DNA from: Hyphomicrobium denitrificans 1NES1
Lineage (GTDB): Bacteria; Pseudomonadota; Alphaproteobacteria; Rhizobiales; Hyphomicrobiaceae
Reading direction: 5' to 3'
NCBI RefSeq assembly: GCF_000230975.2
Contig: NC_021172.1
Span: 310,001 to 374,000, forward strand
DNA: 64,000 bases
The notes under the pieces: model-generated
Databases searched by the model: none
What the model was told of the DNA's origin: nothing
What the model saw: the letters and a program-made list of their open reading frames with translations, nothing else
Translations under genes and position numbers: made by a program
In this document: piece after piece, positions 19,710-32,440 of the stretch
Layout of the letters: the number at the start of each line of letters is the position of its first letter
Position numbering within the stretch: the stretch's first letter is position 1

Positions 19710-20246
19710 TCAGACGTTTTGGGGAGTGTCGTTCTCCATTCCAACGAGAAGCGCAAGTAAAGCTCTCAGGATCTCGATGGGCGGTGGCGGGCAACCAGGG
19801 ACCGTAACGTCTACGGGTAATACGGCCGACACGGGTCCCACACACGCATAGCTACTGGTGAAAAGGCCGCCGGTGCATGCGCAATTGCCGACTGCGACGA
19901 CCCACTTGGGCTCGGGAGTTGCCCGGTAGGTCCGTTCCAGAGCTTCGCGCATATTAGAGGTGACAGGGCCTGTGACGAGCAGAACGTCGGCGTGGCGCGG
20001 AGACGCCACGAACCGTAGACCGAAGCGCTCGATGTCGTAGAATGGATTGCTGAGCGCATGGATCTCGAGCTCGCAGGCGTTGCACGATCCGGTGTCAACT
20101 TCGCGGATGGCAAGGCTGCGACCCAGACTGCGCCGGGCCGCACGTCTCAGGCCCTCGCTGACTTCCTCGAGCGCCTTCTCATCCGGACGCGGGGCTGCTT
20201 CCGTCAGTGGTCCTTGGATCAGGCTCGCGAGCAGGGTTTTGCGCAT
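19710..20246 (-). CDS. hyfI: Complex I/hydrogenase-4-like small subunit (NuoB/HyfI family)
   Basis: A 178-residue Fe-S protein from the ATG at 20246; a longer frame (to 20453) overlaps hyfG. The cluster ligands of the NuoB/HycG family are present: TGSCNACELEIHAL, VGNCACTGG and VPGCPPPPIEIL. It should carry the proximal 4Fe-4S cluster next to the large subunit. It ends the operon, 10 bases after hyfG. The retained cluster shows that electron transfer through this subunit is likely still used even though the nickel site of the partner is gone. Confidence 0.9.
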   Translation of the reverse strand: MRKTLLASLIQGPLTEAAPRPDEKALEEVSEGLRRAARRSLGRSLAIREVDTGSCNACELEIHALSNPFYDIERFGLRFVASPRHADVLLVTGPVTSNMREALERTYRATPEPKWVVAVGNCACTGGLFTSSYACVGPVSAVLPVDVTVPGCPPPPIEILRALLALLVGMENDTPQNV

Positions 20247-20256
20247 GAGCAACCGC

Positions 20257-21771
20257 CTACAGATCTTGCCCCGCGTAGGAGCAGTTGAACGACTTGTTGC
20301 ACAAGGGGAAGTCCGCGACAATGTTGCCCTCGATCGCGGCCTCGAGTAGCGGCCACTGGAACCAGGAGGGATCGCGAAGGTGGCATCTGTCGATGTTGCC
20401 TTTGGCGTCGATGCGCAGCCAAATGAATATGTCGCCGCGGAATCCCTCGACAATGGAAATGCCTTCGCAGGGAGCTTCGACTCTGTGTGGTACTGTTTCG
20501 ACCGGTCCCTCCGGCAATGTGTCGAGTAGCAGTTTGATCAGAAGGATTGATTGTTCGACTTCGCGGATTCGGATCCAGACGCGCGCGTTGACATCGCCTT
20601 CCTTTCGAATGGGGACATCAAACGTGAGCATGTCGTAGGGCGAATAGCCCAGAGATTTCCGCGCGTCGAAATTGCGCTCTGAAGCGCGGCCGACGAACCC
20701 GCCGGCGCCGAACAAGCGCGCAAGCTCGGGAGACACGATTCCTGCCGTCGCGGTTCGGTCCTGAAGCGACGTGGTGTTGTCGTAGAGCTCGACGAGCTTC
20801 GGGAAAGAGGCCTCGATCAGATTGAGCATGTTTAGCAGCTCGTGGATGCCGTCGCTGGTGATATCGCGTACGAGGCCGCCGGGAACGATGACGTCCATCA
20901 TCAGGCGGTGGCCGAAAACGTTCATAGACGCCCGCAGCACGCGTTCGCGCAAGGCGCCGAGGTGAGCAAGCATCAGTGCAAAGGCAGCGTCGTTGCAGAT
21001 CGCGCCGATATCGCCCACGTGGTTAGCGATGCGTTCGATCTCGGCCATTATGGCCCGCACATAGTGCACCCGAGATGGGACTTCGATTTCCGTCGCCGCC
21101 TCGACTGCGCGAGCAAAAGCTAGCGCGTATGCAACAGTGCTGTCTCCCGATGCGCGACCGGCAAGGCGGGCGGCATGTTCGATCGTGCTGCCGATCATCA
21201 GGCTCTCCACGCCTCGGTGCACGTATCCAAGACGCTCCTCCAAGCGGACGACCGTCTCGCCGCTAGCCGTGAAGCGGAAATGTCCCGGCTCGATGATGCC
21301 GGCGTGCACGGGCCCGACGGGGATCTGGTGGAGGTCGGGGCCTTCGACAGGTAGGAAATGATAGGGTCGCGCGCCATGCGTTTGGGACGGCTTGGTCGCC
21401 AGAGGATGATGCAATTTCCAACGCCCGTGATCGAGCCAAGGCCGGGTATCCGGCAAATCCTGCGCGGCAAGCCCGACGAGATCCTGGATCGTGCGCTCGA
21501 GCCGGAGTGCAGGAGTATGTGAGCGGCCGATCGATGGGAAGTCCTTATGCGAGGACTGCAGGCTGAGAATGGCAATCCGGTTTGAGCTGTCCTCAAGAAT
21601 GGACATGTGCACGATTTGAGGCTCAGCCCAAAGGGAGACGAGCGTCCATCGGCCGGCGGCAAGTTCATTCGCAGCCGTGCGCCACTGCTCGGCAGTCACA
21701 GACAGACGAGGCCAGGGTCGACATGGCGCCGCGGCCCAGCAGCTTTCGAGAAGATCATCAAGCGCAGTCAT
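20257..21771 (-). CDS. hyfG: NuoC/NuoD-fused large subunit, HyfG-like without Ni ligands
   Basis: The ATG at 21771 (MTALDDLLESCWAAAP) gives 504 residues; the longer open frame to 22545 is an artefact through hyfF. Residues about 1-160 match a NuoC-like domain and the rest a NuoD/[NiFe]-hydrogenase large subunit (GYVHRGVESLMIG, RIANHVGDIGAICNDAAF). Where hydrogenases have RICGIC, this protein has RLAGRASGDSTVAYAL; at the C-terminus DPCxxC is replaced by FPLCNKSFNCSYAG. The nickel-iron site is therefore absent. This is the hallmark of energy-converting-hydrogenase-related (Ehr) complexes. Confidence 0.9.
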   Translation of the reverse strand: MTALDDLLESCWAAAPCRPWPRLSVTAEQWRTAANELAAGRWTLVSLWAEPQIVHMSILEDSSNRIAILSLQSSHKDFPSIGRSHTPALRLERTIQDLVGLAAQDLPDTRPWLDHGRWKLHHPLATKPSQTHGARPYHFLPVEGPDLHQIPVGPVHAGIIEPGHFRFTASGETVVRLEERLGYVHRGVESLMIGSTIEHAARLAGRASGDSTVAYALAFARAVEAATEIEVPSRVHYVRAIMAEIERIANHVGDIGAICNDAAFALMLAHLGALRERVLRASMNVFGHRLMMDVIVPGGLVRDITSDGIHELLNMLNLIEASFPKLVELYDNTTSLQDRTATAGIVSPELARLFGAGGFVGRASERNFDARKSLGYSPYDMLTFDVPIRKEGDVNARVWIRIREVEQSILLIKLLLDTLPEGPVETVPHRVEAPCEGISIVEGFRGDIFIWLRIDAKGNIDRCHLRDPSWFQWPLLEAAIEGNIVADFPLCNKSFNCSYAGQDL

Positions 21772-21788
21772 TCTTCGATCTCCCCGCC

Positions 21789-23237
21789 TTACCTCAGCAA
21801 CTGCGCGACGTTCTGGAACCAGGATACGAGTTCGGCCGGCAGAAAGATGCCCGCGATCAGGATCAGTGCAAAATGTGAAAACATAGGCACGTAGGACGCT
21901 TCGACAGGCGTCAAGCTGCCCTTCGGTGTACCGAACGCCAGAGTGTTGAGCTTCTGCAGAAGTGCTCCAAGCGCGAGGATGATGCCGATCACGAGCAGGA
22001 CCGCGAGGATCGGCTCGCGAGCGAACGTTGACGTCACCAGAAGAAACTCGCTCATGAAGATGCCGAAGGGTGGCAGGCCGGCGATTGCCATGACGCCGAT
22101 GACGAGCCCCCAGCCGAGGACGGGATGGGTCTCCGTCAGTCCGCCGATTTCGGTCATCTTCTGCGTGCCCTTCACCTGAGCGATGTGGCCGACGGAAAAG
22201 AAGATCGCCGATTTTGTCAGGCTGTGCATCGTCATGTGTAGTAGGCCCGCGAAGTTTGCCAGCGGTCCACCCATGCCGAAGGCAAAGGCGATGATTCCCA
22301 TGTGCTCGATCGAGGAATAGGCAAACATACGTTTGATGTCGCGGCGGCGGTATAACATGAGCGCGGCGAACAGCAACGAGATCAGGCCCATTGTTACCAT
22401 CAGCGGTCCCGGCGCGATCGCTTGGCCGTTTGTCGCCAGCAGCATCTTGAATCTGAGAAGTGCGTGCAGGGCGACGTTGAGGAGCAGTCCCGACAAGACT
22501 GCGGAGATCGGAGTCGGACCTTCGGCGTGTGCGTCCGGCAGCCAACCGTGCATCGGCGCGAGCCCCACTTTCGTGCCGTAGCCCAGGAGAAGGAAGACGA
22601 ATGCCAGATTGAGCAGAGCCGGATCGAAGGTGGCGGCACGCGTCATCAGCTTTGTCCAGGCCATGGCTTCGATTTCCATGCCCGCGACGGGCTTGGCCGC
22701 GAGATAGAGCAGAATGGTTCCGAACAATGCGAGCGCGATGCCGACGCTGCCGAGAATGAAATACTTCCAGGCCGCTTCGAGCGCCTCATGCGTACGGTAG
22801 ATTCCGACCATCAGAACGGTCGTCAGTGTCGCGAACTCGACGCCGACCCACATGAGCCCGAGATTGTTGGCGACCAGCGCCAGATTCATTTCGAACATCA
22901 GCGCCTGATACATGGCGTGGTAGAAGCGCAGATAAGCCGGCGTCAGGCGGCCGATCTCGATCTCGTGGGCGATGTAGCTTGCGCTGAATGCGCTCGTGGT
23001 GAACCCGACGAAAGTGTTGAGCACGATGAAAACGATGTTGAGGTCATCGACGTGCAAGAGCAGCCCTGCCTCCGGCCTTCGCCAGAGCAGCGATAGCGCG
23101 GCAACGAGCGTCAGAAAGCTCGCCAGGACATTGAGCTTCGAAGTCACGGCATAGCCCGGCAGCGCGACGAGCAACGCCGCAGAGACCGCGGGGATCAACA
23201 AGATGAGCGTCAGTCCGTCGAGCGGGAACGCGGTCAT
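21789..23237 (-). CDS. hyfF: Proton-pump-like membrane subunit (HyfF/NuoN/M family)
   Basis: A 482-residue antiporter-like subunit with about 14 membrane segments. Key charged segments of ion-pumping subunits are present: WVGVEFATL (glutamate in TM5), YGTKVGLAPMHGWLPDAHAE (lysine and histidine in TM7/8) and the SSIEHMGII helix. It overlaps hyfE by 4 bases (ATGA) and precedes hyfG by 17. It should translocate protons or sodium in the membrane arm. Confidence 0.93.
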   Translation of the reverse strand: MTAFPLDGLTLILLIPAVSAALLVALPGYAVTSKLNVLASFLTLVAALSLLWRRPEAGLLLHVDDLNIVFIVLNTFVGFTTSAFSASYIAHEIEIGRLTPAYLRFYHAMYQALMFEMNLALVANNLGLMWVGVEFATLTTVLMVGIYRTHEALEAAWKYFILGSVGIALALFGTILLYLAAKPVAGMEIEAMAWTKLMTRAATFDPALLNLAFVFLLLGYGTKVGLAPMHGWLPDAHAEGPTPISAVLSGLLLNVALHALLRFKMLLATNGQAIAPGPLMVTMGLISLLFAALMLYRRRDIKRMFAYSSIEHMGIIAFAFGMGGPLANFAGLLHMTMHSLTKSAIFFSVGHIAQVKGTQKMTEIGGLTETHPVLGWGLVIGVMAIAGLPPFGIFMSEFLLVTSTFAREPILAVLLVIGIILALGALLQKLNTLAFGTPKGSLTPVEASYVPMFSHFALILIAGIFLPAELVSWFQNVAQLLR

Positions 23238-23899
23238 AGGTGTTCACCTCTAAATCGATCGAGCGCGTGCATGTCGACCGTGTCGAAGCGTTCGCGGATG
23301 CGGAACAGGAAGATGCCGATGACGAGAAATGCCACGAGGACTGAAAATGCGACACTCATTTCGACGACCAGCGGCATGCCCTTGGCGCCGGCTGCCGCGA
23401 GGATCAGTCCGTTCTCGAGCGACATGAACCCGATGACTTGACTGACCGCATTGCGGCGCGTCACCATCATCAGGAACCCGAGCAGGACGACCGAAAGCGC
23501 GAGCGCCAAGTCCTCACGCGCGAGGCGGTCGGCGCCAACGGTCACATGCAGCATTACGACCATCGAGAGCGCGACGAGGCCGATGCCAAACAGCATCGTG
23601 AGGCCGATACCGCCGACGGCCTCAATTTCGCGGTGGATATCAAGGCGGATGACAACACGGCGGAGAAGTATTGGGATGATGATCGCCTTGAGCACCAGAG
23701 CGATGGCGGCCGTGATGTAAAGATGCGGGGCATTCTGCACGAACGCCTGCCACGACACTGACAGTGACAGCACGAAGGCATGCAATGCGAACATGTTCAG
23801 AAGGCCGAACATGCGATCCTGATAGAGAAGCAGGAAGCTGATCAGCACGAGTCCGCCGGCCAGAAAATGTGCAACGTCGAAGATCAGACGTTGATCCAT
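23234..23899 (-). CDS. hyfE: Hydrogenase-4-like subunit HyfE (NuoK-like)
   Basis: A 221-residue membrane protein with six or more helices; the C-terminal part (VIGFMSLENGLILAAA) is the NuoK-like region with the conserved glutamate. HyfE is characteristic of group 4 hydrogenase/Ehr modules and separates them from complex I. It lies 2 bases after hyfC on the same strand. Confidence 0.92.
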   Translation of the reverse strand: MDQRLIFDVAHFLAGGLVLISFLLLYQDRMFGLLNMFALHAFVLSLSVSWQAFVQNAPHLYITAAIALVLKAIIIPILLRRVVIRLDIHREIEAVGGIGLTMLFGIGLVALSMVVMLHVTVGADRLAREDLALALSVVLLGFLMMVTRRNAVSQVIGFMSLENGLILAAAGAKGMPLVVEMSVAFSVLVAFLVIGIFLFRIRERFDTVDMHALDRFRGEHL

Positions 23900-23901
23900 C
23901 G

Positions 23902-24858
23902 CTAGAGGCTCCTCGATACGAACAGAAGCAAGGTGGCGAGCAGTCCGAGCATCAGAGCGATCCCTAAGAACTCCGCGACGCGGAAGACGCGCATCTTGGC
24001 AATGGCGGTCTCGAAGATGCCGAGTAGAAGACCGAGGGCGGCGAGTTTCGAAAAGTATGTCGCGCCGCCGATCGCTAGGTCACCTGCTGTCGCTCCGGGT
24101 TTCGCTAGGCCCCACGGTATGAACAGGCACGCGATGAGTGATGCATAGAGCAGAAGCTTCAGATGTGCGGCGAGTTCAATGACGGCGAGGTGCCGTCCGG
24201 AATATTCGAGCACCATAGCCTCATGCACCATCGTCAACTCCAGGTGCGTCGCGGGGTTGTCGACCGGAATACGGGCATTCTCTGCAATCGCGACAATGAT
24301 TAGAGCAACAAGGGCGAGCGCCAAGGAGACGCGCAGACCGACGTCGGGAGACACCATGAAGCTGGAGAAGGTCGAAAGCTGCGTAGAGCCTGCGATCAAA
24401 GCAACAGAGAACACCATCATCATCATAGCCGGCTCGGCGAGCGTCGCGAACGTTGCTTCACGGCTCGAGCCGATGCCACCGAAGCTCGTGCCGATGTCCA
24501 TGCCAGCGAGCGCAAGGAAGAATCTGGCGCTGCCGAGAAGGGCCGTGATTGCAATGAGATCAGCCGACCAACTGAACATGAGTCCGGTCGCGAATGTGGG
24601 CACGAGGCTTGCGGCGACCCATGTGGCTGCGAAAATGAGATAGGGCGCCGTCCGAAACAGCCAGGAGGAATTGTCGGCCAGCACGACCTCTTTGCGCACG
24701 AGACGCAACAAGTCGCGATAGGGCTGCAGTAGAGGCGGTCCCTGACGCATCAGTAGCCGCGCTTTAACCTTGCGCACGAAACCGGTAAGCAGCGGTGCCA
24801 GGGCGAGAACGAGCATCATCTGGATGCCCTGCGTGGCAATGGCGACGATCAGGGCCAT
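23902..24858 (-). CDS. hyfC: Membrane subunit HyfC (NuoH-like)
   Basis: A 318-residue protein from the ATG at 24858, overlapping the end of hyfB by 10 bases; the long frame to 25176 reads antisense-like sequence inside hyfB. NuoH-family features: RQGPPLLQPYRDLLRLVRKE near the N-terminus and the acidic loop ENARIPVDNPATHLELTMVHEAMVLEYSG. In complex I this subunit forms the quinone-entry region; in group 4 complexes it links the Fe-S arm to the pump. Confidence 0.94.
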   Translation of the reverse strand: MALIVAIATQGIQMMLVLALAPLLTGFVRKVKARLLMRQGPPLLQPYRDLLRLVRKEVVLADNSSWLFRTAPYLIFAATWVAASLVPTFATGLMFSWSADLIAITALLGSARFFLALAGMDIGTSFGGIGSSREATFATLAEPAMMMMVFSVALIAGSTQLSTFSSFMVSPDVGLRVSLALALVALIIVAIAENARIPVDNPATHLELTMVHEAMVLEYSGRHLAVIELAAHLKLLLYASLIACLFIPWGLAKPGATAGDLAIGGATYFSKLAALGLLLGIFETAIAKMRVFRVAEFLGIALMLGLLATLLLFVSRSL

Positions 24859-26858
24859 ATGGCAAGCCCCAGGAGAAGCACGACTAGTGCGACAAACACG
24901 AGGCTTAAGAAGCGCCGGATCGTTAGAAACTGCATCTTGTTGAGAAAGCCGCTGGCGATCGCAACGGCGGAAGCAATTGGGGCGTAGAGCATCTCCCAGA
25001 TGACGTCGTGCACGCGGGCCTCGTACACGGCCGGTCGAGTCAGGCCGGGTGCCGGCATGTCGACGTGCTCGGTCGCACGAAACACCGTCGTTCCGAAGAC
25101 GCGGCGGATCGGCTGTCCGAAGCTTGCTGCAGTATATTGCGTGATCGGACTGGGATCTGGGTAACCGCAGTCCCATGCTGCGCTGCGTCTGAGCGATTTG
25201 CTTGCGAGCCGATGGATGGCAAATGCGGCGGTCATCGCGGAGAAGCTGATGAAGATGAAGACGAGCAGTCCATTATACGAGCTGCGGCTTTCGCTGATCG
25301 GCACGATCGACAGCCATGGATCAGACGTTTGAACAGGCATGTGCGCCGACGTCAGCGTCGTTGTTACCGGCGCTAACGCATCGATCAGCACTCCCGGGAG
25401 GATACCGGCGAGTAGGCAAATGATAGCAAGAAGCCCCATCGCGGTAACAGACCACTGATCCGTCTCGTTTGCCTCACGCGCTTCTTGCGATCGCGGGCGG
25501 CCGAGAAACGCCACGCCATACATTCTGACGAAGCATGCAGCCGCGAGCGCCGCGGCCAGTGCCATCATAGCTCCGACGGCTGGCACGAAGAACTTGAGGC
25601 CCCACTGCGGCAACTGTGGGCTCACCAGAACTGCTTGGAACATCAGCCATTCAGATACGAATCCGTTGAACGGCGGCAACGCGGATATTGCGGCCGACCC
25701 GGCCAGCATGAACACAGCGGTCTGTGGCATCCGATGGATAAGGCCGCCCATGCGCTCAATATTGCGGTCGTGTGTTGCACCGAGCACCGCGCCGGCCCCG
25801 AAGAACAGCAGGCTCTTGAAGAATGAGTGATTGAGGGCGTGCAGCAGCGCGGCCGTGAGGGCGAGGGCTGCTGCAGCATTGAAGCCGTTGGATGCGAAAG
25901 CCAAGGCAAGCCCCAAGCCGATGAAGATGATGCCGATGTTTTCAATAGTGCTGCAGGCAAGAATCCGCTTGATGTCCTTTTCCATCAGAGCCTGAAGAAC
26001 GCCGAGCACGGCGGTGACTGCTCCGACCACCAGAACGACGATCGCCCACCACCACTGCGGAGCCCCGAGCAAATCCATGGCGATCCGGATGAAGCCATAG
26101 ACTGCAACCTTGGTCATGACGCCGCTCATCAGTGCCGAGACATGACTAGGTGCAGCGGGATGGGCAAGAGGAAGCCACACATGGAGCGGCACCAAGCCGG
26201 CCTTGGAGCCGGCGCCGATCAGCACGAGGACGAGCACGAGGCCTGAGGTAAGATCGGCGTGATGCAGCTCCCGGATGGACGCGAACAAATAGTCGCCCCC
26301 GGCTCCGGCCAGAAGGCCGAAGGCGAGAAGGAGCGAAGCCGCGCCGAAGCTCGCCATGATGAGATAGATGAAGCCGGCGCGCGCGTTGTCGCCTTCCTTG
26401 TGATGCGCCATCACGAGCGCCCAGGAGGTGAGCGACATCAGCTCCCAGCTCAGGAGGAAGGTGAAGGCATCGTCGGCAAGCAGCACGAGGTTCATCCCGG
26501 CGAGAAATGCCGGATAGAACGGCAGCACACGACCGGGGCTCTCCTCATGCTGACCGTAGCCCACTGCATAAAAGCTTGCGGCGGCGGCGCCGAAATTGAC
26601 GAGGGCGAGGAAGAACGCCGATAGCGTATCGATGCGAAAGTGCGAGCCGACCCAGGGTAATCCTAATGGCAGTCCGGCAATGGCCGGCGAAGGTGCGGTA
26701 AGGAGAAAATCGACAGCGTTGGCACAAGCAGCAACGCTGATAATCAAAGTTGAGACATACACGAGCGTAATCGCATGGCGCGCACGCGACATGAGTATAC
26801 CAAGGATAGCAGTTCCCAAAAGGAAGCCGCAGCATACCAGTGCGAACATCGCAGCCAT
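24849..26858 (-). CDS. hyfB: Proton-pump-like membrane subunit HyfB (NuoL family)
   Basis: A 669-residue subunit heading the operon. Charged helices typical of pumping subunits are kept: SWELMSLTSWALV, GSKAGLVPLHVWLPLAHPAAPSHVSA and CSTIENIGII. A C-terminal extension of about 150 residues (AWDCGYPDPSPITQYTAASF) is the usual HyfB tail. The six genes hyfB-C-E-F-G-I lack hyfA, hyfD and the ferredoxin-like hyfH, and no formate dehydrogenase, maturation (hyp) or nickel uptake genes lie nearby. Confidence 0.94.
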   Translation of the reverse strand: MAAMFALVCCGFLLGTAILGILMSRARHAITLVYVSTLIISVAACANAVDFLLTAPSPAIAGLPLGLPWVGSHFRIDTLSAFFLALVNFGAAAASFYAVGYGQHEESPGRVLPFYPAFLAGMNLVLLADDAFTFLLSWELMSLTSWALVMAHHKEGDNARAGFIYLIMASFGAASLLLAFGLLAGAGGDYLFASIRELHHADLTSGLVLVLVLIGAGSKAGLVPLHVWLPLAHPAAPSHVSALMSGVMTKVAVYGFIRIAMDLLGAPQWWWAIVVLVVGAVTAVLGVLQALMEKDIKRILACSTIENIGIIFIGLGLALAFASNGFNAAAALALTAALLHALNHSFFKSLLFFGAGAVLGATHDRNIERMGGLIHRMPQTAVFMLAGSAAISALPPFNGFVSEWLMFQAVLVSPQLPQWGLKFFVPAVGAMMALAAALAAACFVRMYGVAFLGRPRSQEAREANETDQWSVTAMGLLAIICLLAGILPGVLIDALAPVTTTLTSAHMPVQTSDPWLSIVPISESRSSYNGLLVFIFISFSAMTAAFAIHRLASKSLRRSAAWDCGYPDPSPITQYTAASFGQPIRRVFGTTVFRATEHVDMPAPGLTRPAVYEARVHDVIWEMLYAPIASAVAIASGFLNKMQFLTIRRFLSLVFVALVVLLLGLAIWP

Positions 26859-27440: not shown

Positions 27441-28184
27441 TTAAGGCGTCTGTTGCTTCTCCAGATAGGAGACAAGATCCTCGACGATCTGATCGGCGCG
27501 TTCAGGAGGCGCGTCCTGGAGGAAATAGTGCTCCCACGCGAGTAAGCGCATGGTTCCGTGACCAGTTATACCGCCATCACGAATGATGTCTTCAACGCGT
27601 GCTCGTGGGAACATCCCGCCGTTGCGTTTTGCAATTTCGGTGAGGTCGGGAGCAGCCTTCTTTAATGCATCTGCAAACATGCCGGGGCCAGTACCCACTC
27701 CATGGCACAAAGCGCAGTAGGTCATGTAGGTTGCTTCACCCGCGCTTGCAGGCTTTGCGGAACTATCGGCACCTTGTGGTGAATCGGCCGCTTGCTTTGC
27801 ACTCTCTAATGCATCGTTGGTCGCATCTCTCGCCTTGTCCAACACCTCTTCCGTAGCCCGTTTGGCATGCTCCAGAGCTTTACTAGATGCCTGCTTTGCT
27901 TTTTCGATCGATGAACCGATGTGAGGCTTGGCTTTTTCTAATGCTTCTTTCACGGCCCGGCGCGCCTTCTCGATCGCATCGATCGCAGCGTCCTTTGCTG
28001 AATCGATAGCCGACTTCGTCGACTGCGCGGCATCTTCGATTGTCCGATCGACTTTATCGCCAGATTCCTTTAGCGCGGCGTGGTCATCGGAAGTTGCACC
28101 GTACGTCGGCGCAGCCTGATCGGTGCTTGCCGCCCCCGCAAAAATAATGACGAGCACTATTCCCAAAAACAATTGGCGTTTCAT
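27441..28184 (-). CDS. Exported cytochrome c with 11-residue LEA-like repeats
   Basis: A 247-residue protein from the ATG at 28184 with GAGG upstream. It has a signal peptide (residues 1-20), then eight consecutive 11-residue repeats from residue 48 to 135 of the form (A/V/S/T)(I/L)(D/E)xA(K/R)xAxxx, for example AIEKARRAVKE, ALEHAKRATEE and VLDKARDATND. A class I cytochrome c domain follows, with haem motif CALCH at 157-161 and a likely axial Met at 212 (HGTMRLLAW). The repeats form an amphipathic helix as in group 3 LEA proteins or phasin-like coiled coils. It is divergent from the b561 gene across an FNR/FixK-type box. Confidence 0.88.
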   Translation of the reverse strand: MKRQLFLGIVLVIIFAGAASTDQAAPTYGATSDDHAALKESGDKVDRTIEDAAQSTKSAIDSAKDAAIDAIEKARRAVKEALEKAKPHIGSSIEKAKQASSKALEHAKRATEEVLDKARDATNDALESAKQAADSPQGADSSAKPASAGEATYMTYCALCHGVGTGPGMFADALKKAAPDLTEIAKRNGGMFPRARVEDIIRDGGITGHGTMRLLAWEHYFLQDAPPERADQIVEDLVSYLEKQQTP

Positions 28185-28243: not shown

Positions 28244-28257
28244 TTGACGCACATCAA
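28244..28257. promoter_or_regulatory. FNR/FixK-type box in a divergent promoter
   Basis: TTGACGCACATCAA fits the TTGA-N6-TCAA consensus of FNR/FixK regulators, with the right half perfect. Its centre lies about 66 bases from the cytochrome c start and 74 from the b561 start, so it can serve both. It suggests control by low oxygen. Confidence 0.6.
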
Positions 28258-28324: not shown

Positions 28325-29053
28325 ATGGTCGAATACAAAGAATATGTCGCCTGGGATGCTACGACGCGCTGGTTTCATTGGATTAATGCGATCGCGGTCA
28401 TCGGTCTCATAGTTACTGGGCTTGTCATCTTATTCGACAATGATCTGGGCCTTTCGGCTGCAGGCAAGATAACGCTCAAGAGCGTCCACGTTTCGTTCGG
28501 CTATCTCATGGCGCTAAATTTGCTGTGGCGTTTTGTTTGGGCATTTGTCGGCGGACACTACTCACGCTGGCGTAGCTTTCTTCCTGGTGGACGCGGTTAC
28601 GTTGCTTCACTGCGGGCCTACATGGCTTCACTTTTATCCGGTGAGCCGCAGCAATATGTTGGCCACAATCCGCTCGCGCGCGTAGGAGTCACGATACTCT
28701 TTCTGCTGTTGCTGCTTCAGTTGGTGACGGGATTAGTTATAGCGGGAACAGATCTCTTCTGGCCGCCCTTCGGACATTGGTTTGCAGCTTGGGTCGCGGC
28801 TCCAGGCGTCGATCCGACGGCGGTTGTTCCAGGCGTGCCCGACCTCGTCGAAAAGACGGCCTATGATAGCATGCGCGCTTTTCGCAAGCCGTTCGTGGAA
28901 GTGCACGAAATAGGGTTCTATGTGCTGGTCGTCACTATTGTTCTTCATCTCGCTGCGGTCGTGATGACCGAGATCCACGAAGGCGGCAGTATTACATCGG
29001 CGATGTTTACCGGCCGAAAGCTGCTTTCGCGTCGGCCTCCCGATGCTTCTTAA
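28325..29053 (+). CDS. Cytochrome b561-family membrane protein
   Basis: A 242-residue diheme-type b561/hydrogenase cytochrome b family protein. Haem-ligand histidines are visible in TTRWFHWINAIAV, LKSVHVSFGYLMAL and the C-terminal VEVHEIGFYVLV and VLHLAAVV. The four-helix layout is normal. It probably moves electrons between the quinone pool and a periplasmic carrier, and the divergent cytochrome c is the natural partner (inference). A periplasmic loop between helices 3 and 4 is longer than in the second b561 gene (32582-33157). Confidence 0.88.
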   Translation: MVEYKEYVAWDATTRWFHWINAIAVIGLIVTGLVILFDNDLGLSAAGKITLKSVHVSFGYLMALNLLWRFVWAFVGGHYSRWRSFLPGGRGYVASLRAYMASLLSGEPQQYVGHNPLARVGVTILFLLLLLQLVTGLVIAGTDLFWPPFGHWFAAWVAAPGVDPTAVVPGVPDLVEKTAYDSMRAFRKPFVEVHEIGFYVLVVTIVLHLAAVVMTEIHEGGSITSAMFTGRKLLSRRPPDAS

Positions 29054-29165: not shown

Positions 29166-30959
29166 GTGCAATTGAGCGCGGCTGCTAGCGAGGCAAAGGT
29201 GGAGGCGGTAGTGGATCGTGAATCGCCGAATCGGGAAGATGGTGTGCAACTGTCGCTCGATCGTCCACTCCACGCTGCGATTGCGCGCTTCACTGCGGGC
29301 GTATCGCCTTCCGCGCTCTTTCAGGCATATATCGACTGGGCGCATCATCTGGCCTTTTCGCCGGATAAGCAGGTCGAGCTGACGCTCTTCGCTCTGCACA
29401 GCTGGATCCGCTTTCTGGAATATTGTCCTAAGGCTCTGCTTAATCCCGACTGCAGCGCATGCGTCGAACTAGCGCCAAATGACAAGCGTTTTGCGAGCAG
29501 CGATTGGCACCGCTGGCCTTTCAATGTCATATCCCAGGGATTTCTCTTCACGCAGCAGTGGTGGCATCAGGCGACGACAGGGATAAGGGGCGTATCACAC
29601 CACCACGAAGACATTGTTTCTTTCGTTGCCAGACAGCTGCTCGATATTTCGTCGCCGGCGAATTTTCTACTCACAAATCCCGATGTGCTTGAGACCACGA
29701 TACAACAGGGTGGAATGAACCTCGTGCGCGGCACTATGAACTTTTTAGAAGATCAATTGCGTATGCTCGAAGGCATGAAGCCGGTTGGAGCTGACGCGTA
29801 TCAGGTTGGCCGGGATGTCGGCGTCACGCCTGGAAGGGTTGTGGCGCGAAATCAGATTATGGAGTTGATCCAGTATGCTCCGTCAACGGATGAGGTCTAT
29901 TGTCAGCCTATCCTGATCGTGCCCGCATGGATCATGAGATATTATATTCTTGATCTTTCCCCGTCGAACTCGCTGGTCAAATATCTCGTCGACAAGGGTT
30001 ATACCGTCTTCATTATCTCTTGGAAGAATCCGACCGGGAGCGATCGAAACCTAAGCATGGACGACTATCGCAGCCTTGGTGTGATGGCGGCTCTCGATGC
30101 CGTGACGGCGATCGTTCCTAGTCAATCGGTCCATAGCGTCGGGTATTGTCTCGGTGGAACTTTGCTCACGATCGCGGCCGCCGCCATGGCGCGGGACGGA
30201 GACAAGCGTCTCGCATCTCTTACGTTGCTCGCAGCACAGACGGATTTCTCGGAGGCTGGCGAACTTTCATTGTTCATCGATGATGCGCAGGTGAGCTTTC
30301 TTGAAGATCTGATGGCCGAGAAGGGTACCCTCGGCGCCCATCAAATGGCTGGTGCTTTCCAGATACTCAGATCCAATGATCTTATATGGTCGACGATGGT
30401 GCAGAGCTACTTGAAGGGTGAGCGCCCTCCAATGTTCGACCTCATGGCGTGGAATGCCGATGCGACGCGCATGCCCTGCCGCATGCATACGGAATATCTT
30501 CATCGGCTCTTTCTTCACAATGATTTGGCGGCAGGACGCACGGAGGTAGAGGGTCGTCCGATCTCGCTCAGCGATATACAGATTCCGATTTTTGCGGTGA
30601 GCACAATCTCCGATCACGTTGCGCCGTGGCGATCGGTTTATAAGGTGCAAGCACTGACTAACGCTGATGTGACCTTCGTCCTGTCGAATGGAGGCCACAA
30701 CGCCGGAATCGTCAATCCTCCAGGAAACGGCAATCGAAAGTATCAAATCGCCACGCATGCCGGACATGAAAAGTACATCGATCCCAACTCTTGGCAACAA
30801 CGTGCTGCACATGAAGACGGGTCATGGTGGCCATGCTGGGTGAGCTGGCTTTCCAAACATTCGACGGCTGGCAAGGTTCCACCTCCTACAATGGGATCAT
30901 CACAGCGAGGATACGGAATCTTATGTGATGCACCGGGCACATATGTCTTTTCGACTTAA
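29166..30959 (+). CDS. phaC: Class I poly(3-hydroxyalkanoate) synthase
   Basis: A 597-residue synthase from a GTG at 29166; other starts a few codons downstream are possible. It has the N-terminal PhaC domain and the alpha/beta hydrolase core with catalytic Cys328 (GYCLGG), Asp483 (SDHVAPW) and His511 (GGHNAG). It polymerises (R)-3-hydroxyacyl-CoA on PHB granules. phaA/phaB are not adjacent; the gene lies inside the stress region, so it may be an additional, stress-linked PhaC. The depolymerase and a phasin-like gene are also in this window. Confidence 0.95.
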   Translation: MQLSAAASEAKVEAVVDRESPNREDGVQLSLDRPLHAAIARFTAGVSPSALFQAYIDWAHHLAFSPDKQVELTLFALHSWIRFLEYCPKALLNPDCSACVELAPNDKRFASSDWHRWPFNVISQGFLFTQQWWHQATTGIRGVSHHHEDIVSFVARQLLDISSPANFLLTNPDVLETTIQQGGMNLVRGTMNFLEDQLRMLEGMKPVGADAYQVGRDVGVTPGRVVARNQIMELIQYAPSTDEVYCQPILIVPAWIMRYYILDLSPSNSLVKYLVDKGYTVFIISWKNPTGSDRNLSMDDYRSLGVMAALDAVTAIVPSQSVHSVGYCLGGTLLTIAAAAMARDGDKRLASLTLLAAQTDFSEAGELSLFIDDAQVSFLEDLMAEKGTLGAHQMAGAFQILRSNDLIWSTMVQSYLKGERPPMFDLMAWNADATRMPCRMHTEYLHRLFLHNDLAAGRTEVEGRPISLSDIQIPIFAVSTISDHVAPWRSVYKVQALTNADVTFVLSNGGHNAGIVNPPGNGNRKYQIATHAGHEKYIDPNSWQQRAAHEDGSWWPCWVSWLSKHSTAGKVPPPTMGSSQRGYGILCDAPGTYVFST

Positions 30960-31021
30960 ACGATGCCTTCACGCCTCGCGACGATCAGCTGAAGTAAATT
31001 CGAGGCTATTGGGATTTGCGC

Positions 31022-31459
31022 ATGTTCAAACATTTGCTCATTGCGACCGATGGTTCTGAGCTGTCCAAGAAGGCCGTCGAACAAGGCTTGAGCCTGGCAA
31101 AAAGTCTTGGCGCCAAAGTGACAGCGGTCACCGTCACGGAACCTTTTGCTGCATCGGTTCCCATAGAAGTGGCACTAGTGTTTTCGGCGGAAGAATACGA
31201 GAAGGCCGTTAGGTCGAGTGCCGAGAACATTTTGCAGAGTGTCTCGGCGGTGATGGCAGCCAGCGGTATTCCTTGCGAGACCGTGCACGTCAAGAATCAA
31301 TACCCAGCAGACGGAATACTCGATACTGCCCAAGCTAGAGGGTGTGACTTAATTGTGATGGGTTCACATGGCCGACGGGGCTTGTCGCGGCTAGTGCTCG
31401 GCAGTCAAGCCAACCGTGTCGTCACACAAAGCGCAGTACCCGTCCTGATTTGCCGGTAA
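31022..31459 (+). CDS. Universal stress protein (UspA family, ATP-binding type)
   Basis: A 145-residue single-domain Usp from the ATG at 31022. ATDGSELSKKA at the N-terminus and GSHGRRGLSRLVLGSQANR near the C-terminus match the ATP-binding G-2x-G-9x-G-S/T motif. It lies 60 bases after phaC on the same strand, so it may be cotranscribed. Such proteins are induced under oxygen limitation and starvation in related bacteria. Confidence 0.93.
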   Translation: MFKHLLIATDGSELSKKAVEQGLSLAKSLGAKVTAVTVTEPFAASVPIEVALVFSAEEYEKAVRSSAENILQSVSAVMAASGIPCETVHVKNQYPADGILDTAQARGCDLIVMGSHGRRGLSRLVLGSQANRVVTQSAVPVLICR

Positions 31460-31512: not shown

Positions 31513-32440
31513 TCAGGCCGCCGCGTGCTCGTAGATATCTTCCTCCTGCGCGTTATGCATTCGGACAAGAGCTTCGATCGATTCAATAATTCGCTGCGCA
31601 TCGCGAATGAAATACCGATCGACACTTTCAGCGATCATGTCATCGGTCAGCCGGGACAGAAGTCGCGGCCAGATGCAAAATTTTCCGATGCGCCCGGCTC
31701 ATGGCTGCAAGAGCAGGATTGCTACCGAGCGAGCGATTGAGGCGAGGATAGACGACCATCTCATCTTCACGTTCATGCTCCACGATCCGCTTCGAGACAA
31801 TTTGGTACGCCTCGAGGCTTGCTGCAATGTCCTTTGGTGCATCGTCGAGTTTGTCGGCAATTTTTCGGAGCCTGTTCAGAGCTTCGTTGAGGGCTCGTGG
31901 TCTTGTTCCAGCGCACGTATTGACGACGGCGCGAGACCACCTTGGCCTACAGAGCGGCCCGGGGAAAGTGCCGCAGCGCATTCAGAATCACTGCCACATC
32001 GATCAATTCCTGCGAAACCGCGCCGGCGACCGGCGATAGCATGCCGAAGGCGGCGGCAATCATTGCGCTGCCAGACAGCGCCAGTCCTATGACGATACTC
32101 TGCAACGCTATGCGATATGCTCTTCGGGCAATGCTTACCGCACCCGCAACTCTATCGAAACGGTCAACCAAGATGACGACGTCGGCCGCTTCTGATGAGG
32201 CACTGGCGCCTCTTGCGCCCATCGCCACGCCGACGTCGGTGGCCGCAAGGGCGGGGGCATCATTTATGCCGTCGCTGACCATGATGGTGGGATGCAAGCG
32301 GCGCTCCACCGCCACGGCTCGACCTTATCGGAAGGCAACCCGGTCGGCGAGCACGGCGTCAATATCCAATGCCGCTCCGCAGCAGCCGCGACTGCCGTCA
32401 GAAGTGCGAAAGCACGCATTGGCTTCTCCTTCTTGCCAAA
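31513..32440 (-). pseudogene. Decayed P-type metal ATPase fused to a hemerythrin domain
   Basis: Reading the minus strand across frames, the C-terminal half of a P1B-type ATPase is clear: DKVE, ERRLHPTIMVSDGINDAPAL (hinge motif, Gly changed to Ser), GASASSEAADVVIL and AVSQELIDVAVILNALR. It runs into a hemerythrin-like domain (LRKIADKLDDAPKDI, VEHEREDEMVVYPRLNRSLG, then after a frame shift HNAQEEDIYEH) ending at 31513. Shifts near 31650, 31960 and 32340 and loss of all N-terminal domains make it a relic. Hemerythrin-tailed ATPases are known in P1B-5-like exporters. Confidence 0.8.

Follow-up and report, generated by a model that had tools for sequence, protein, structure and literature searches.

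Why should a c-type cytochrome carry a long row of 11-residue repeats in front of its haem domain? The question is raised by a gene of Hyphomicrobium denitrificans 1NES1, located in a stretch of 64,000 nucleotides (contig NC_021172.1, positions 310,001 to 374,000 of the forward strand) that is referred to here as the window. The complete gene lies at 27441..28184 on the minus strand, with an ATG at 28184 and a stop at 27441, and encodes 247 amino acids: a signal peptide, a domain of eight hendecads (11-residue repeats) and a class I cytochrome c domain. Most known electron carriers are unattached proteins of the periplasm or are anchored by a lipid or a membrane helix. In the explanation that we favour, and to which we give about even chances, this protein is a low-oxygen periplasmic monohaem cytochrome c that is docked by its repeat hairpin at the surface of a partner or of the membrane, and passes electrons from the quinol side to a low-oxygen acceptor.

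The signal peptide comprises approximately residues 1–22 (28119..28184, minus strand; assigned by eye). In several relatives, the likely cleavage point has the sequence ANA/EQ, by eye a signal peptidase I-like site. The N-terminus resembles a cleavable signal, and the protein is predicted to be periplasmic. The eight repeats span residues 49–136 (27777..28040, minus strand). The sequence-only reading of this gene had reported eight unbroken repeats at residues 48–135 followed by a CALCH cytochrome c domain; these are real, and the block is the same one read one residue earlier. The monohaem domain (residues 148–247; 27444..27743, minus strand) has its CALCH motif at 157–161, where haem attachment is predicted, and passes both class I cytochrome c models in Pfam (PF13442, 27.7 bits with a cut-off of 27; PF00034, 24.2 bits with a cut-off of 21.3). 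Met212, presumably the sixth (distal) haem ligand, is invariant across 24 aligned rows.

Read with Ile or Leu first, the units are IEDAAQSTKSA, IDSAKDAAIDA, IEKARRAVKEA, LEKAKPHIGSS, IEKAKQASSKA, LEHAKRATEEV, LDKARDATNDA and LESAKQAADSP. Column 1 is Ile or Leu and column 4 is Ala in all eight. Periodicity by chance is ruled out. BLOSUM self-similarity of the repeat protein gives z = 8.2 at lag 11 and z = 8.0 at lag 22, with none of 2000 shuffles as high for either, and the hydrophobic moment at the angle of 11 residues in three turns is 0.359, as against a shuffle mean of 0.080 (sd 0.042) and matched by none of 20000 shuffles. AlphaFold2, one of the checks that the sequence-only reading had proposed, was run twice; the first model had a poor haem domain, and the second, from 39 sequences, was better. 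Two helices are predicted with moderate confidence (residues 37–89 and 92–134), with a break at HIGSS, and in the model they apparently form an amphipathic hairpin of about four plus four repeats. Helical hairpins are among the VIA matches of the predicted structure. A Foldseek search of the PDB with the first model gave no match under E 0.5; with the second, the best match had E 1.7 and the top rows were cytochromes c552.

This arrangement also bears on the strongest alternative, namely that the domain is an oligomerisation module, its hairpins pairing into a coiled-coil dimer or bundle that yields a multi-haem assembly without binding lipid. The hydrophobic columns 8, 11, 1 and 4 have the a-d-e-h spacing that is canonical for hendecad helices and are the four most conserved of the hendecad (0.927, 0.896, 0.958 and 0.958), and a two-helix arrangement would suit such pairing. 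The core would however be weak, mostly Ala and Thr with one Ile or Leu per repeat, and the hairpin by itself buries the same face. We regard oligomerisation as possible, with the odds against it.

The fusion is not a peculiarity of one sequence. A protein search returned 40 rows including the query, of which P0002–P0021 (n = 20) have 240–253 residues and 72–87% identity over 99–100% of the query; P0024–P0026 are more distant fusions. The alignment comprises 24 of the 40 rows, query included; P0022 and P0023, which are truncated, and P0027–P0040 (14 rows), which are without the full repeat block, were left out. In the window, as in the 23 aligned relatives, a single frame covers both the repeats and the haem domain, and residues 49–135 are free of gaps in all 24 rows. 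An artefact of a frameshift or of two genes, which the sequence-only reading had allowed for, is ruled out by the same single frame in relatives from four genomes and from metagenome contigs. In one public entry, P0022 of Hyphomicrobium sp. 99, the protein starts inside the repeats (170 residues), while the genome frame at L037:8830-9573 (G045:C3) reads 247 residues with a signal peptide; the fusion is hidden there because the start was mis-set.

A search of 103 family genomes, 22 of them of the genus (threshold 1e-5 for family genomes and E<=1 for the own genome, with weak matches containing stops left unused), placed the fusion at five loci in four genomes (G000, G045, G053 and, twice, G044), all of its own genus. 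The search across the order, likewise suggested by the sequence-only reading, gave no match outside the genus at E<=1e-20 among a sample of 297 genomes. Among a sample of 385 genomes of the class, no match was found outside the own genome at E<=1e-15, and a related-locus search of genome contigs confirmed no relative. Searches of openly licensed papers aimed at a cytochrome c with hendecad, 11-mer or LEA-like repeats, or at Hyphomicrobium, showed no such protein in the titles and abstract openings of the matches listed; to that extent, no earlier description of the fusion was seen.

Within the fusion, the repeats are conserved almost as well as the haem domain. Averaged by column over the 24 rows, identity reaches 0.884 for the haem domain and 0.867 for the repeats; the values ahead of the repeats are 0.617 and 0.593, and the linker has 0.523. 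Non-synonymous divergence (dN) in four close pairs (window–L037, window–L036, L037–L036 and L038–L035) is 0.065–0.092 in the repeats, 0.043–0.085 in the haem domain and 0.306–0.529 in the N-terminus, with synonymous divergence near saturation in some of the pairs; the short linker has dN of 0.18–0.42 in three of the four. The flanks of the repeat block change 2.5–7 times faster than the block in close orthologs. Because the repeats are so close to the haem domain in both measures there, they are taken to be a functional domain and not a free spacer. One comparison weighs against that reading of the repeats: in the distant pair window–L038, dN is 0.442 in the repeats and 0.210 in the haem domain.

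The upstream region points to the conditions under which the protein would be made. A FixK/FNR-type box, TTGACGCACATCAA (TTGATGTGCGTCAA on the minus strand), is located at 28244..28257 in the divergent intergenic region and starts 73 nucleotides upstream of the start codon. All five fusion loci have the box TTGATGTG[CG/AA]TCAA 73 or 81 nucleotides ahead of the start codon, as TTGATGTGCGTCAA in the window, L036 and L037 and as TTGATGTGAATCAA in L035 and L038. The TTGA-N6-TCAA site of the fusion genes agrees with the FixK consensus given in PMC5582078. Five genes for the cytochrome alone are divided, with an upstream site at L048, L040 and the own-genome paralog L003, and none at L049 and L002. 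The window by itself has no excess of such sites (two, with 0.86 expected); genome-wide there are 80, versus 21 for a reversed control pattern. One lies 299 nucleotides ahead of a ccoN match at 1089360, a gene whose actual start is uncertain, and a second ccoN locus over cut-off is without a site. The genome has eight HTH_Crp_2 matches over cut-off. The main evidence for control is the conserved place of the box in the fusion genes, which are themselves related and so not independent; on this basis, the fusion gene would be regulated by low oxygen. Elsewhere in the same genome, about 15 kb at G000:C1:139330-154194 (L067) contain seven TTGA-N6-TCAA sites and frames similar by eye to BON, CBS, Hsp20 and phasin proteins, a region that looks like a low-oxygen island.

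The repeat domain also exists without the cytochrome. Eight family genomes (G050 and G079–G085; loci L034/L039 and L041–L047) encode the eight-repeat block as a stand-alone protein, which starts with a stretch that by eye resembles a signal and ends in a tail of low complexity that is mostly Pro-rich; none of the eight has a CXXCH motif, and the start codons of some of the genes are uncertain. These proteins are probably secreted. P0041, P0043 and P0044 are further stand-alone eight-hendecad proteins; P0045, P0047 and P0048 (30–35% identity, poor register) and the matches in G014 and G037, which are looser or incompletely read through, were excluded. Ungapped identity to the block of the window is 59% for L034 and 44–52% for the other stand-alone loci. 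When the order of the repeats in L034 was shuffled, the mean was 36.0 identities against 52 observed. Shuffles reaching the observed identity, per 5000, number 0 for L039/L034, 7 for L041, 3 for L042, 0 for L043, 5 for L044, 23 for L045, 16 for L046 and 28 for L047, and 0 for P0041, 2 for P0044, 41 for P0043 and 1 for the distant fusion P0026. A period shared by convergence is thereby ruled out; since fused and free blocks have the same order of repeats, they are homologous along their length. Ahead of the stand-alone gene at L039, within 300 nucleotides upstream of 8359, there is a short frame, MKTWMKPEVREQEVGLEVTSYLPAEIDVI, which we take to resemble PqqA.

Fused and free forms thus share the domain and its repeat order, whereas in the free form the Pro-rich tail replaces the haem domain and none of the eight genes has a TTGA-N6-TCAA site upstream. 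The fusion is absent from all eight stand-alone genomes (search at 1e-5), and in the genome of the window the only free match at E<=1 is a weak one interrupted by a stop (E 4.6e-4). The domain is therefore not unique to the cytochrome.

The origin of the fusion was examined in a tree of the cytochrome domain (45 ungapped rows, 28 fused and 17 unfused; partly gapped rows gave the same result). It requires three label changes, with a main fused clade of 23, a clade of four, and P0026 among unfused rows (weak support, 90/47). Forcing the fused rows into one clade is rejected by the approximately unbiased test (p-AU 0.008), with long branches in play. A single origin is unsupported; either the fusion arose repeatedly or it was lost repeatedly. 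Other unusual combinations were seen alongside. In P0040 (299 residues), a universal stress protein domain (PF00582) precedes a related cytochrome c domain, and it too is an unusual fusion partner within this cytochrome group. P0053 and P0054 represent a Hyphomicrobium PRC-barrel protein with 11-residue-type helical repeats towards its C-terminus, so that repeats of this kind also occur with other partner domains.

The free copies suggest a wider proposal, which we hold to be doubtful: the eight-hendecad domain would define an undescribed family of secreted envelope proteins, helical hairpins that hold periplasmic electron carriers at low oxygen, and the free copies would scaffold a cytochrome. 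G050 encodes a free block and, separately, the c-type cytochrome L040, whose gene has a FixK/FNR-type box of its own; on a scaffolding role, the fusion would reveal the pair. Against this, L040 falls outside the clade of fused cytochromes on the tree, and the stand-alone genes are without the box.

The genes around the fusion are consistent with the low-oxygen role favoured here. Divergent from it, and having the box in common with it, is a gene of the cytochrome b561 family at 28325..29053 on the plus strand (PF01292, 101.6 bits). This neighbour recurs at L036, one of the two G044 loci, with 89% identity and is absent at the other three, making two of five fusion loci in all; it is a possible redox partner. 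A polyhydroxyalkanoate (PHA) synthase gene (PhaC_N; 29166..30959) and a universal stress protein gene (31016..31459) follow, both on the plus strand, and a related universal stress protein gene lies within 17–18 kb around three of the four other fusion loci (not L037). In the low-oxygen-activated (lxa) locus of Burkholderia cenocepacia, a putative cytochrome c is encoded together with a BON protein and universal stress proteins (PMC6127331). Compared by gene content, the surroundings of the relatives of the fusion are similar, with universal stress protein, BON, CBS and DUF3775 genes, whereas the window itself has the b561, PHA synthase and universal stress protein genes. Possible electron acceptors are also encoded in the genome, which has two CcoN, one NirK and one CCP/MauG over cut-offs. 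Two further features of the region were noted. Two short frames at 31640-32315 match parts of a 777-residue protein of L037 (9908-12241), a P-type ATPase that includes a hemerythrin domain, and are apparently what remains of it here. Genes that seem to encode a hydrogenase-4/complex I-like membrane complex lie beside the fusion gene at 19710-26858 (Proton_antipo_M in 24849-26858; the rest by eye).

Box and neighbours together indicate low oxygen and not drying, which tells against the desiccation protection that had been proposed for the repeats. The underlying idea is that the domain is an LEA- or perilipin-like surfactant or protective helix, unfolded in solution, which coats membranes or polymer surfaces or shields the cytochrome under drying or stress. 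The 11-mer does match most of the group 3 LEA consensus as given in PMC10295645: the hydrophobic columns fit, the acidic column in eight of eight units and the basic column in seven of eight. The second basic column of the motif (column 7) reads S A A H A A A A, with Ala in six of eight and Lys or Arg in none. LEA_4 is absent among the 19 Pfam families at E<=1, in a search whose HMMER filters drop most weak matches. DosH of Deinococcus radiodurans, a group 3 LEA protein, likewise has a core of eight 11-mer motifs with a similar hydrophobic and charge pattern; but its motifs are split by linkers, and the accessible part of the same source names no haem domain, while the units of the fusion are contiguous and accompanied by a signal peptide and a cytochrome. 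Exchangeable apolipoproteins, perilipins and alpha-synuclein also have 11-mer amphipathic helices, with hydrophobic moments of 0.35 for Plin3 and 0.30 for alpha-synuclein (Table 1 of PMC5889406), although these are averaged differently from the value of 0.359 found here and the comparison is rough. The corresponding Pfam matches are all under their cut-offs (PF01442, apolipoprotein A1/A4/E, 21.9 bits against 90; Perilipin, 13.8 against 33; Phasin, PF09361, 17.2 against 24.9; Senescence, also weak), and lipid binding by the fusion is a candidate property. A signal peptide, moreover, would direct the protein away from cytoplasmic granules. The protective helix is therefore an unlikely explanation. 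The term 'LEA' suits the repeat pattern, not the family and not a desiccation function.

The nearest working precedent for the explanation we favour is the tethering of cytochrome cy (CycY) of Rhodobacter capsulatus, which carries electrons to a cbb3-type oxidase (PMC7876108). Both proteins have a monohaem c domain of about 100 residues after a long N-terminal stretch; cytochrome cy has a transmembrane helix and a 69-residue linker, whereas the fusion has a cleavable-looking signal peptide and the conserved eight-hendecad domain. That the repeats are, like the linker of cytochrome cy, which matters in that protein (PMC7876108), a rigid spacer setting reach without a binding face of its own would fit their position between signal peptide and haem domain, but is very unlikely, given that in close orthologs, though not in the distant pair, they are about as constrained as the haem domain, that the domain also occurs alone with nothing to space, and that no transmembrane anchor is seen by eye.

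A low-oxygen, hairpin-docked carrier would work as follows. At low oxygen, a regulator of the Crp/FNR family would switch the fusion gene on at the FixK/FNR-type box; the protein would be exported to the periplasm and then receive its haem. The eight-hendecad hairpin would dock on the surface of a partner or the membrane and keep the haem near donors and acceptors. Electrons would arrive from the quinol side, with the divergent cytochrome b561 or bc1 as candidate sources, and would pass to a low-oxygen acceptor such as a cbb3 oxidase. An amphipathic docking module had been suggested by the sequence-only reading, and the data are compatible with it; the docking itself, like the partners and the direction of electron flow, we infer.

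If this is true, a soluble amphipathic hairpin would join the known means of keeping an electron carrier in place. Because the same hairpin occurs alone in related bacteria, the fusion offers a testable function for an unnamed protein family, and from the box follows a concrete prediction, namely that the protein is produced when oxygen is low.
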